Below are positions 3,211 through 21,049 of a DNA stretch of 34,849 bases, piece after piece. The notes under the pieces were generated by a model that searched no databases, had not been told where the DNA came from, and was given only the letters and a program-made list of their open reading frames with translations. The position numbers and the translations under genes are program-made. This stretch comes from a virus: positions 1 through 34,849 of the IMG/VR virus record IMGVR_UViG_3300026382_000037. One strand, 5' to 3'. The first letter of the stretch is position 1, and each line of letters starts with the position of its first letter.

Positions 3211-3697
3211 ACTTGACGAAATAAATCAAACTTTTGAAAAGCTAGCGGATGTAGATAAAAGCAAGACTATGAAAGAGTTTGTAGATTATGTCTATGATAA
3301 AGCCATAGAGAGAGCTGATAAGCATACTAAGACGGGTGCAATGATGAAAGCTGTGTTTCTACACAAGCAAGGCAATGCGCACTATGTAGGAGTAGACAAA
3401 AAACTAGCTCCTTATGCTCTCTTTGTGCATTGGGGAACTAAACCGCACTTAATCAAACCAAACAAAAGAAAAGCGTTAAGATGGGCAACTCAGAACACAA
3501 AACAATTCGCAAAACAATCTAAAAAAGGAGTCTTTAAGCTCTACAAAGTCGGAGCAAATAAACATTTTGGGTTTGCTTTTGCAAAAGTAATACACCACCC
3601 AGGCTACAAAGGCGATCCGTTCCTAACCCTCGCACTTGATGACGGACTAAAGAAACTACCCGAATTTTTTAACAAACTAGAAAAGGAACTTAAATAA
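3188..3697 (+). CDS. HK97 gp10-like head-tail/tail-completion protein
   Basis: This 169-residue protein contains the characteristic segment YALFVHWGTKPHLIKPNKRKALRW (residues about 75-98), matching the 'GT+PH.I.P...K.L.F' core of HK97 gp10-like proteins, plus a C-terminal HPGYKGDPFLTLALDDGL typical of the family ('HPG..a.PFL..Al'). Such proteins act at the head-tail joint or in tail completion. It overlaps the end of the portal gene by 23 bases, implying translational coupling, and its stop overlaps the next ATG. Confidence 0.85.
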   Translation: MVQINQSELDEINQTFEKLADVDKSKTMKEFVDYVYDKAIERADKHTKTGAMMKAVFLHKQGNAHYVGVDKKLAPYALFVHWGTKPHLIKPNKRKALRWATQNTKQFAKQSKKGVFKLYKVGANKHFGFAFAKVIHHPGYKGDPFLTLALDDGLKKLPEFFNKLEKELK

Positions 3698-13858: not shown

Positions 13859-14077
13859 TTACTTCCTATTACTTGATTGTTTAGGAGTTTGTTTTGTATC
13901 ATTATTTTGTAGGTAGGATTTGATGTCCCTCCAAGCTGAAACAGGGATACCAAATTCATCCTCAAGTTTGAACATTTTGCCGGCTGTTGGTCTTGTTAAT
14001 CCACTCAGCCATTGGCTAACAGTAGAGTGAGATACATTTAATTTAATTTGTATTTCTTTTCTATTTATTTTTTTCAT
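13859..14077 (-). CDS. Cro-like HTH regulator
   Basis: This small protein has a clear helix-turn-helix (KEIQIKLNVSHSTVSQWLSGLTRP) followed by KMFKLEDEFGIPVSAW, like Cro/CI-family operator-binding proteins. The ATG at 14077 gives 72 residues. A longer frame from a TTG at 14110 would run through operator O1 and the -10, so it is unlikely. It is divergent from the CI-like repressor gene and first in the leftward early operon, the standard Cro position. Confidence 0.82.
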   Translation of the reverse strand: MKKINRKEIQIKLNVSHSTVSQWLSGLTRPTAGKMFKLEDEFGIPVSAWRDIKSYLQNNDTKQTPKQSSNRK

Positions 14078-14084
14078 AGTCTTA

Positions 14085-14090
14085 TTGTAA
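14085..14090 (-). promoter_or_regulatory. Leftward early promoter -10
   Basis: On the minus strand operator O1 reads GTAAGAATATCTTAC directly followed by AAT, so TACAAT (14090 to 14085) forms a -10 overlapping the operator's right half. The same operator-plus-AAT arrangement recurs on the plus strand at 15361-15378. Start of transcription would be near 14078, at or next to the ATG at 14077, so either the mRNA is nearly leaderless or the start lies slightly upstream. No strong -35 is seen. Confidence 0.5.
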
Positions 14091-14101
14091 GATATTCTTA
14101 C
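14087..14101. promoter_or_regulatory. Repressor operator O1
   Basis: GTAAGATATTCTTAC, a palindrome with perfect 6-bp arms around a 3-base centre. It overlaps the -10 of the leftward (cro) promoter. Its centre is 33 bp from that of O2. The identical sequence occurs at 15327-15341. Confidence 0.8.
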
Positions 14102-14119
14102 TTTATTCAAGTTTAAAAG

Positions 14120-14134
14120 GAAAGAATATCTTAC
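14120..14134. promoter_or_regulatory. Repressor operator O2
   Basis: GAAAGAATATCTTAC, one mismatch from the reverse complement of O1. It lies just upstream of the TATAAC -10 of the repressor gene and overlaps its -35 region, so it probably mediates autoregulation. Weaker symmetry suggests lower affinity than O1. Confidence 0.7.
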
Positions 14135-14148
14135 TTTTATGTTGTTAG

Positions 14149-14172: not shown

Positions 14173-14817
14173 ATGAGTTTTGGAGAATTATTAAAAGAAG
14201 CTAGAAAAAAAATGAATATGTCTCAAGACGATCTTGCCTCAAAGCTAGGTGTTAATAGAGTATCTATATCAAATTATGAACAAAATAAAAATACACCTAC
14301 ACTTGCAAATTTAAAAAAATTAAGAGAGGTTCTAGGTCTAAGCCCAGACTATTTTGAAGACAACAAAAGGAAGACAGTAAGGGAAGTCAATATTGTTGGC
14401 ACTGCTTCATGTGGTGGCGCGGATATTAATTATCTCCAAGAAAACGACAGGGTTTGTTATTATAATGGGGAGCATTATAAAAAAAATCTTTATTGTGTTA
14501 TTGCAAACGGAGATAGTATGGCAACGGACATTGAAGATGGGGATGAAGTGATATGCGATCCTGATGCTGTTCCTCAAAATGGAGATATAGTTCATTATAC
14601 TATTGGAGACGAAAGTGCAATAAAAGTATATGTCGAAGACAAAGAAGCTTTTATTATTCAATTTGTCCCATTTAATGCTTCAGAAGATTTTAGAACTAAG
14701 ACAATAAGGCTTGACGATGATGAAGCACAACAGATAAAAATTTCAAAGGTTATTGCAATCAACAAGCTAAAGCTTAATAATCGTGCAAAAAGATTAAAGC
14801 TAATTGGGAGGATTTAA
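14173..14817 (+). CDS. CI-like repressor, HTH_XRE plus S24 peptidase
   Basis: This 214-residue protein has an XRE helix-turn-helix at about 5-60 (MSQDDLASKLGVNRVSISNYEQNKNTPTLANLKKL) and a LexA/S24 C-terminal domain. The nucleophile is Ser115 in NGDSM, the general base Lys151 in ESAIKVYV, and the likely self-cleavage site Cys80-Gly81 in ASCGGA. It should hold lysogeny and be inactivated by RecA-stimulated autocleavage after DNA damage. It is divergent from the Cro-like gene and convergent with the HIRAN gene (stops one base apart). Four operator copies flank these two genes. The start ATG follows AAAGGAG. Confidence 0.93.
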   Translation: MSFGELLKEARKKMNMSQDDLASKLGVNRVSISNYEQNKNTPTLANLKKLREVLGLSPDYFEDNKRKTVREVNIVGTASCGGADINYLQENDRVCYYNGEHYKKNLYCVIANGDSMATDIEDGDEVICDPDAVPQNGDIVHYTIGDESAIKVYVEDKEAFIIQFVPFNASEDFRTKTIRLDDDEAQQIKISKVIAINKLKLNNRAKRLKLIGRI

Positions 14818-15314: not shown

Positions 15315-15326
15315 TCTTAGAGGGCA

Positions 15327-15341
15327 GTAAGATATTCTTAC
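15327..15341. promoter_or_regulatory. Repressor operator O3
   Basis: GTAAGATATTCTTAC, identical to O1. It lies between the leftward HIRAN promoter and the rightward early promoter. The centre-to-centre distance to O4 is 34 bp, about the same as between O1 and O2. Confidence 0.8.
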
Positions 15342-15360
15342 TAATTTAAACTGCTATTAA

Positions 15361-15375
15361 GTAAGTATATCTTAC
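15361..15375. promoter_or_regulatory. Repressor operator O4
   Basis: GTAAGTATATCTTAC, a palindrome with perfect 5-bp arms and an AT centre. Followed by AAT it creates TACAAT (15373-15378), the -10 of the rightward early promoter, exactly as O1 does for the leftward promoter. Confidence 0.8.
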
Positions 15376-15378
15376 AAT
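15373..15378 (+). promoter_or_regulatory. Rightward early promoter -10
   Basis: TACAAT overlaps the right half of operator O4, so repressor binding should block it. Transcription would start near 15385, three bases before the first hairpin of the noncoding region and about 600 bases before the first gene. Confidence 0.5.
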
Positions 15379-15384
15379 ACTCCT

Positions 15385-15915
15385 ACACAAACAAAACACC
15401 TCCTGAAAAAAAGAGGCTTTGTTTGAGACAATGAGAGTTCAAGAGAGAACGCCTGTCAATGTAAAGAGATACTACGGTATCGCAGTCCGTGAGATAAGCA
15501 GCGTGCGGACAAAGACTCTCATTTTGATTTACTGATGTATCACGCAGAATTGATACTTGTTACATGTAAACACCCACTAACCTATTAAGCGAGGTTATGG
15601 ATTGAAACTTTTTGATGGAGCATCAAATATAATACAAGCTTTCTCAACATACATTGACGGCGTTTGAGTGTAATTTGATGTTCCACAAAGAAGTTATATA
15701 AGCACAAAAGTCCTCTTGCGATGCCAAGCTAAGGCTTAAATCAGTTTAGCATACTGTGAGCAAAGGCTATGTGCAAAAAGTTTAACAAAATCAAGCGAAC
15801 AAAAGCATTACTATTATTTACATACTTATTAATTTATTTGTGAGATACATCTATTTACAAGCGGTTTTTTGTTGGGATGCGCGTTTAACCGTGCTTGATT
15901 TTGTTGAGCTTTTAC
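15385..15915 (+). ncRNA. Large structured leader or noncoding RNA region
   Basis: No convincing gene is present for about 600 bases, but inverted repeats follow one another almost without gaps. Stems: 15388-15402 with 15413-15425 (8+4 pairs); 15430-15438 with 15515-15523 (9 pairs) enclosing 15468-15472/15477-15481, closed by a TACG tetraloop, and 15485-15491/15504-15510; 15537-15542/15551-15556; 15578-15583/15592-15597; 15617-15628/15673-15684 (12 pairs, one G-U); nested 4-5 bp stems from 15702 to 15774; and 15776-15796/15893-15913 (21 pairs, three G-U at most). It begins at the rightward early promoter. It could be an antitermination leader, a free large phage RNA, or an origin. Strand and boundaries are inferred. 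Confidence 0.6.
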
Positions 15916-15981
15916 AGAGGGTAAGAGTGAAGTCGTGAGCGGTAGGACGCCCACAGTGTTAAATCATAAGGAAAAACACAA

Positions 15982-20566: not shown

Positions 20567-21049
20567 ATGTTTAATAAAATAATCTTAGTAGGCAATCTCA
20601 CACGAGACATAGAAATTAGATACTCTCAGAGCGGAGTGGGAATTGCAAAAACTGCAATCGCTACAAGCCGTAAATTCACAAGCAATGGTGAGAAAAAAGA
20701 AGAAGTTTGTTTTGTGGATATAACTTTTTTTGGCAAAAGTGCCGAAGTTGCTAACCAATACCTCAGAAAAGGAAGCAAAATCCTTGTTGAGGGTAGATTA
20801 AACTTTGAACAGTGGGCTGATCAGAACGGCGGGAAACGTTCAAAACACTCTGTAATCGCGGAGAGTATGCAGATGCTCGACTCAAAAAGTGACAATCAAC
20901 AACAAGGGCAGCAACAGCAATATCAACAGCCAGCACAACAAGCACCGCAACAACCTGCACAACAATATCAAGCACCGCACGGACAAGTACCTGTTTATAA
21001 TGAACCTGCACCGCAACAAAGTGGCTACCAACAGCCGCAAAATCGGTGA
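20567..21049 (+). CDS. ssb: Single-stranded DNA-binding protein, acidic tip out of frame
   Basis: An OB-fold SSB (residues 1-107: NKIILVGNLTRDIEIRYSQSG..., FVDITFFGKSAEVANQYLRKGSKILVEGRL) is followed by a Gln/Pro-rich linker. This frame stops at a TGA at 21047-21049 after PQNR. The conserved SSB tip that recruits partner proteins, here DLDEDIPF, is encoded intact in the +1 frame and ends at 21095. Removing one A from the AAAA run at 21039-21042 would join the two. Either a single-base error or mutation, or a frameshifting event near the UGAC, is possible. Confidence 0.9.
   Translation: MFNKIILVGNLTRDIEIRYSQSGVGIAKTAIATSRKFTSNGEKKEEVCFVDITFFGKSAEVANQYLRKGSKILVEGRLNFEQWADQNGGKRSKHSVIAESMQMLDSKSDNQQQGQQQQYQQPAQQAPQQPAQQYQAPHGQVPVYNEPAPQQSGYQQPQNR

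Follow-up and report, generated by a model that had tools for sequence, protein, structure and literature searches.

The put RNA of phage HK022 is approximately 70 nt long, folds into two stem-loops just downstream of PL and is present on both early transcripts, PL and PR; it suppresses termination by binding to the zinc-binding domain of the RNA polymerase beta' subunit (PMC9378689). The block described here lies in the window, i.e., the 34,849 nt of the IMG/VR record IMGVR_UViG_3300026382_000037. It resembles put in being a structured RNA directly behind an early phage promoter and in its two stem-loops (modules A and B), which stand next to each other in the window and in the relatives L119, L124, L152, and L175. 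It differs from put in comprising several unlike elements, which are found on one transcript only, the leftward Cro transcript being essentially leaderless.

GOLLD and ROOL are large noncoding RNAs of phages and prophages whose elaborate folds contain pseudoknots or kissing loops, and they are often located near tRNA genes (PMC12286853). The block shares with them its size class, the phage origin, the kissing loops and the pseudoknots. However, it gave no covariance-model match, and no tRNA gene was found within the window. Whereas GOLLD and ROOL are single RNAs with one conserved architecture, the modules of the block are exchanged and separated among relatives.

The early mRNA of T7-type phages carries a row of long RNase III hairpins. 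Here, long hairpins also stand in a row on an early transcript, but they are located in noncoding sequence, and conserved internal loops and pseudoknots lie inside them. Type III toxin-antitoxin RNAs are tandem pseudoknotted units from mobile elements. Pseudoknotted units in a mobile element are present here as well, but they are unlike each other, and no toxin gene was identified beside them.

The phage and its rightward early promoter

The window encodes a repressor with HTH and S24 domains, a Cro-like HTH protein, an antirepressor, NinG, a DNA methylase, an SSB, the annealing protein Sak and an integrase, and is therefore assigned to a temperate phage. The SSB is nearest to the SSB of Sulfurimonas (up to 93% over 111 residues). 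Based on this closeness, the host is probably a bacterium of the Sulfurimonas family. The near match to host SSBs also makes a capture of the gene from a Sulfurimonas-like host likely.

The RNA block is preceded by an operator pair with a -10 box (Table 1), a stretch that is common to L118, L119, L123, and L175. As this 54-nt repeat recurs in inverted orientation between the repressor gene and the Cro-like gene (blastn, 83%), the rightward promoter very likely uses the operators of the repressor. The operator-controlled promoter proposed in an earlier, sequence-only reading of this DNA is thus backed by the 16-nt inverted repeat as well as by the inverted, 83% identical copy. The rightward transcription start (around position 15385) is predicted from the TACAAT -10 box, and the first hairpin (module A, 15385) begins approximately 3 nt past the predicted start, as had been stated in that reading. 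On the leftward side, the ATG of the Cro-like gene falls at the predicted transcript start, which leaves nearly no leader, and the mRNA of the gene is apparently translated in this almost leaderless form.

Between approximately position 15385 and the start of the first plausible downstream ORF, no ORF longer than 41 aa was found. The longest internal ORFs comprise just 24 to 41 aa, in agreement with the earlier view that the region contains no good gene. The block is located at or near the head of an early operon for recombination and integration. A palindrome (TTACATGTAA) is present in six copies in the window (at 15560, 16024, 16039, 5951, 21406, and 28414), three of which lie in or just past the RNA block, and was also found in L116 and L118.

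Table 1. Positions of the RNA modules, the promoter elements and neighboring genes in the window.
Feature	Position	Strand	Details
Cro-like HTH gene	13859-14110	-	leftward
Inverted copy of the operator/promoter repeat	14083-14136	-	ahead of the leftward Cro-like gene
Repressor gene	14173-14817		HTH and S24 domains
Operator pair and -10 box, rightward early promoter	15326-15379	+	16-nt inverted repeat 15327-15342/15360-15375
Module A, 5' terminal hairpin	15385-15425	+	homologous hairpins in L116, L118, L119, L124, L120, L152, L175
Module B	15429-15524	+	closing stem 15430-15438/15515-15523; UACG hairpin 15468-15481; inner hairpin 15485-15489/15506-15510
Module C, two hairpins	15537-15600	+	15537-15542/15551-15556 and 15574-15583/15592-15600
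Module D, long hairpin	15605-15696	+	contains 12-pair stem 15617-15628/15673-15684
Module X, weaker hairpin	15710-15769	+	from the fold alone; other sequence there in relatives
Module E, window type	15776-15913	+	21-bp stem 15776-15796/15893-15913 around pseudoknot; P2 15805-15808/15877-15880; P3 15862-15866/15887-15891
Module H, small hairpin upstream of first ORF	15935-15954	+	conserved in L116, L117, L118; little stem variation
First small ORF, 47 aa	15982-16125	+	homologues come after module H in L116, L117, L118
SSB gene	20567-21049		

Folding and covariation of the modules

On the + strand, the 531 nt from 15385 to 15915 fold with -143.1 kcal/mol, compared to a mean of -115.0 kcal/mol for shuffled sequences (z = -4.46), and none of 100 shuffles was as good, while the - strand reached a z of -3.17 in the shuffle test. 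Among non-overlapping tiles of 531 nt, the region is the best of 59 on the + strand (z = -4.04) and takes seventh place on the - strand (z = -2.12). In fold scans with a fixed length of 140 nt the region does not stand out. These scans are uninformative, since segments of fixed length cut through the modules.

The stems described in the sequence-only reading were recovered. The 12-pair stem contains one G-U pair and the 21-pair stem two, its inner 13 pairs all being Watson-Crick, and the 9-bp stem that closes the two-hairpin junction is an exact inverted repeat. The hairpin GATAC-TACG-GTATC with its UNCG loop is present in module B, and L116 has UUCG at the place of the UACG tetraloop.

A DNA search in 228 genomes of the Sulfurimonas family yielded five prophage regions, and further relatives were found via repressor similarity, a conserved string of module C and a string of the 5' hairpin. 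Leaders were read in L116, L117, L118, L119, L120, L123/L124, L152, L153, and L175/L177. The sample thus consists of approximately nine temperate phages or prophages of Sulfurimonas-family bacteria, which are few independent sequences. By their neighboring IMG numbers, several of them give the impression of coming from one study area, and the MAG contigs of the relatives are short. No weight was given to E-values from rough covariance models.

For module B, seven closing stems, six of them distinct, were picked by hand. Even where their sequences differ entirely, the stems are paired (55 of 56 cells, with double compensation in 8/8 columns), compared to a mean of 32.6 paired cells when the 3' strands were re-dealt. 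The choice by hand biases this count, and the bias is reduced only in the anchored tests (module C, P2 of module E and the E element of G086, see below). The inner hairpin is paired in 20/20 cells. Between the window and L116, module B is 97% identical.

The two hairpins of module C carry complementary 8-nt loops, CGCAGAAU in the first and AUUAAGCG in the second, which can form a kissing pair. In a MAFFT alignment of four sequences, 84/84 cells pair and five pairs are changed on both sides. The covariation score, with the loop-loop helix included, was reached by 1 of 500 shuffles. In this helix (CGC..RAU/AUY..GCG) the R-Y position covaries.

Module D is 98.9% identical between the window and L116, which carries two copies of it. 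The second copy keeps the outer stem with compensated changes, so that the compensatory variation expected for the 12-pair stem was seen via a paralogous copy, read by eye.

In the window type of module E, P2 and P3 make a pseudoknot inside the 21-bp stem. In this type, 98.9% of the cells pair, with one double change each in the 21-bp stem, P2 and P3, and sliding the partners by 1-3 columns lowers the pairing to 30-51%. The double change in the 21-bp stem is of the kind that the sequence-only reading had looked for. The covariation score is reached by 20 of 500 shuffles and, with three sequences, is statistically modest.

A second form of E is known in five phages (L119, L152, L175, L153, and L120). 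Its 5' half consists of a variable long P1, AAAGUC (GAAGUC in L120), a 4-bp P2 and an apical region, followed in the 3' half by GG-UAGR, P2', UAG, CC, and P1'. AAGUC is followed, and UAGCC preceded, by four letters that vary across the five phages and pair in all of them (5/5). Since MAFFT could not align the swapped stems, anchored counts were used instead of a covariance model, and they gave 20/20 paired cells for cognate P2 strands vs. 50/80 for non-cognate pairings. Furthermore, NGG pairs with CCN' across P2', which forms P3. The hairpin of the window has the same topology but lacks the AAAGUC and UAGCC letters, and the two forms appear to be kin.

The 228 Sulfurimonas-family genomes were also searched blindly for E, using a pattern of the unpaired anchor letters alone. 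The known elements of L119, L152, and L120 were regained, L175 and L153 lying outside those genomes or the gap range. A new match was found in G086, an unrelated phage-like element with a ParA-like gene, in which 8/8 pairs of P1, 4/4 of P2, and 4/5 of P3 are formed. Pattern matches in G089, G132, and G228 lack the helices and were regarded as chance. On the sample of the order, the pattern gave G086 once more and one match in G227, which was rejected as GC-rich, without helices and resembling coding sequence.

The Rfam scan of the window gave no family above the gathering score, and a permissive scan gave unrelated matches at chance level. An M-box riboswitch match (14.9 bits, cut-off 44) was rejected as chance. 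The scan of the relatives gave just 5S-like and host 5S and tRNA matches.

The comparison of homologous regions thus brought the compensatory changes (modules B, C, and E) that had been proposed as a check. As the relatives retain the same shapes although the sequence has changed, selection acts on the shapes, and the region is a real structured RNA.

Mosaic layout among related phages

The relatives have pieces of the block in common, but never the whole, and the elements are swapped between phages as units, with conserved letters mainly in loops and junctions. In L175 a compact version is found, with A, B, a C-like piece, E, and H followed by an ORF. L116 keeps B and D (97-98.9%, compared to 94.6% for the adjoining, mostly coding stretch), whereas C and E are replaced by other sequence and an ORF lies between A and B. 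In L117 the modules B, E, and H are located in the middle of an operon and A is missing. L118, L120, and L152 carry ORFs of the opposite strand between the elements, and in L116 and L118 ORFs part A from the rest of the block. In most relatives the block retains a position ahead of small early ORFs and of module H. Since its pieces are gained, lost, separated by genes or replaced, the region is a mosaic array of discrete elements and not one large ornate RNA. The earlier description as a large structured phage RNA on the rightward early transcript therefore holds for the structured RNA, but not for a single RNA of the GOLLD/ROOL class.

The ORFs inserted between hairpin A and the rest encode 202, 105, and 258 aa (L116:1532-2140, L118:3972-5070). 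In addition, L118 contains a 5S-rRNA-like RNA within the RNA block, antisense to the leader (L118:3414-3529, + strand; 47.1 bits, gathering score 38). It equals Sulfurimonas-family 5S rRNA in 71 of 112 aligned positions (33/36 in the 3' half); a phage-borne 5S relative would be unusual. Tiny hydrophobic ORFs with a strong Shine-Dalgarno sequence (AAAGGAGGUG) lie antisense to the leader in L118 (region 3530-3640) and L124 (1-110) and recall type I toxin-antitoxin layouts. L123 and L124 are two different viral contigs, but both break off at one identical base in the RNA block (position 1), which suggests a shared repeat breaking the assembly.

No relatives were found in IMG/VR by protein searches with the Sak annealing protein, the HIRAN protein and a 332-aa protein, and phage and plasmid DNA collections gave no match. 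The phages reached by an exonuclease-based search lack a leader of this kind. With the covariance model of module C, only its seed phages (G181 and G183) were recovered from the 228 family genomes and no match was obtained in 399 genomes of the order, both searches being run with stricter filters. With order-wide samples of 399 and 219 genomes and strict filters, absence outside the family is weak evidence.

Possible roles of the array

The main reading, to which we assign a probability of about one half, is that the array (A, B, C, D, E, and H) heads the repressor-controlled rightward early operon and provides trans-acting early RNAs. A role in trans is preferred because the elements are separable, duplicated and found standing alone elsewhere, and because unpaired letters are kept while stems are replaced.

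The main rival is a leader acting in cis, since the block stays upstream of the early ORFs, and in most relatives also of H. Modules A and B would act on elongating RNA polymerase like put of HK022, and the rest would protect or regulate the early mRNA. This is possible, though we are doubtful of it. The pair of A and B starts where transcription is predicted to start, and the two are neighbors in five phages, as in the two-stem-loop put RNA just downstream of PL (PMC9378689). Moreover, L116, L117, and L118 have terminator-like hairpins ahead of B. However, a leader of this kind is absent from the Cro transcript, terminator-like sites are few further along the + strand, genes separate A from B in L116 and L118, L117 has B without A, and C, D, and E would be left unexplained.

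A replication origin or other DNA site, in which the inverted repeats act as DNA, had been named as the main alternative and is very unlikely. The region is intergenic and rich in inverted repeats, and a steady rise of the cumulative GC skew starts here, which the switch to rightward genes alone could explain. Against an origin, the conserved signal is base pairing: long stems covary while conserved iterons are absent, the + strand is the one that folds better and has the G-U pairs, and genes interrupt the block in relatives. A single ornate RNA of the GOLLD/ROOL kind is just as improbable. The size class and the phage origin would fit, as would the kissing loops and the pseudoknots, but Rfam gave no match, the parts are separable and exchanged, and no tRNA is nearby. 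Chance folding of an A+T-rich spacer, with which the inconspicuous 140-nt scans would agree, is refuted in practice by the covariation in B, C, and E and the blind recovery of E.

The elements are probably made as one early transcript upon infection or induction, as their position and the operators suggest. The long helices of D and E might, less certainly, allow a nuclease such as RNase III to release the elements. The released RNAs would then be separate early factors, whose conserved internal loops and pseudoknots may bind a host or phage protein, the ribosome or an RNA. In this way the elements would correspond, as RNAs, to the operon's small accessory early genes.

The stretch contains at least two to three new RNA structures (the B, C, and E types), which covary cleanly and match no Rfam family. 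Phage early regions have been mined for small host-takeover proteins, and their noncoding stretches are usually skipped. The conserved loops of the B, C, and E types are ready-made baits for target finding, and since the unpaired letters alone sufficed to regain E, this element can now be surveyed for. More tentatively, we suggest that in temperate phages of the Sulfurimonas family the slot for small early accessory genes holds an exchangeable cassette of several unrelated, new families of trans-acting RNAs, among them the long-stem pseudoknot and the kissing-loop pair, which may act against or upon host functions at an early stage of infection.
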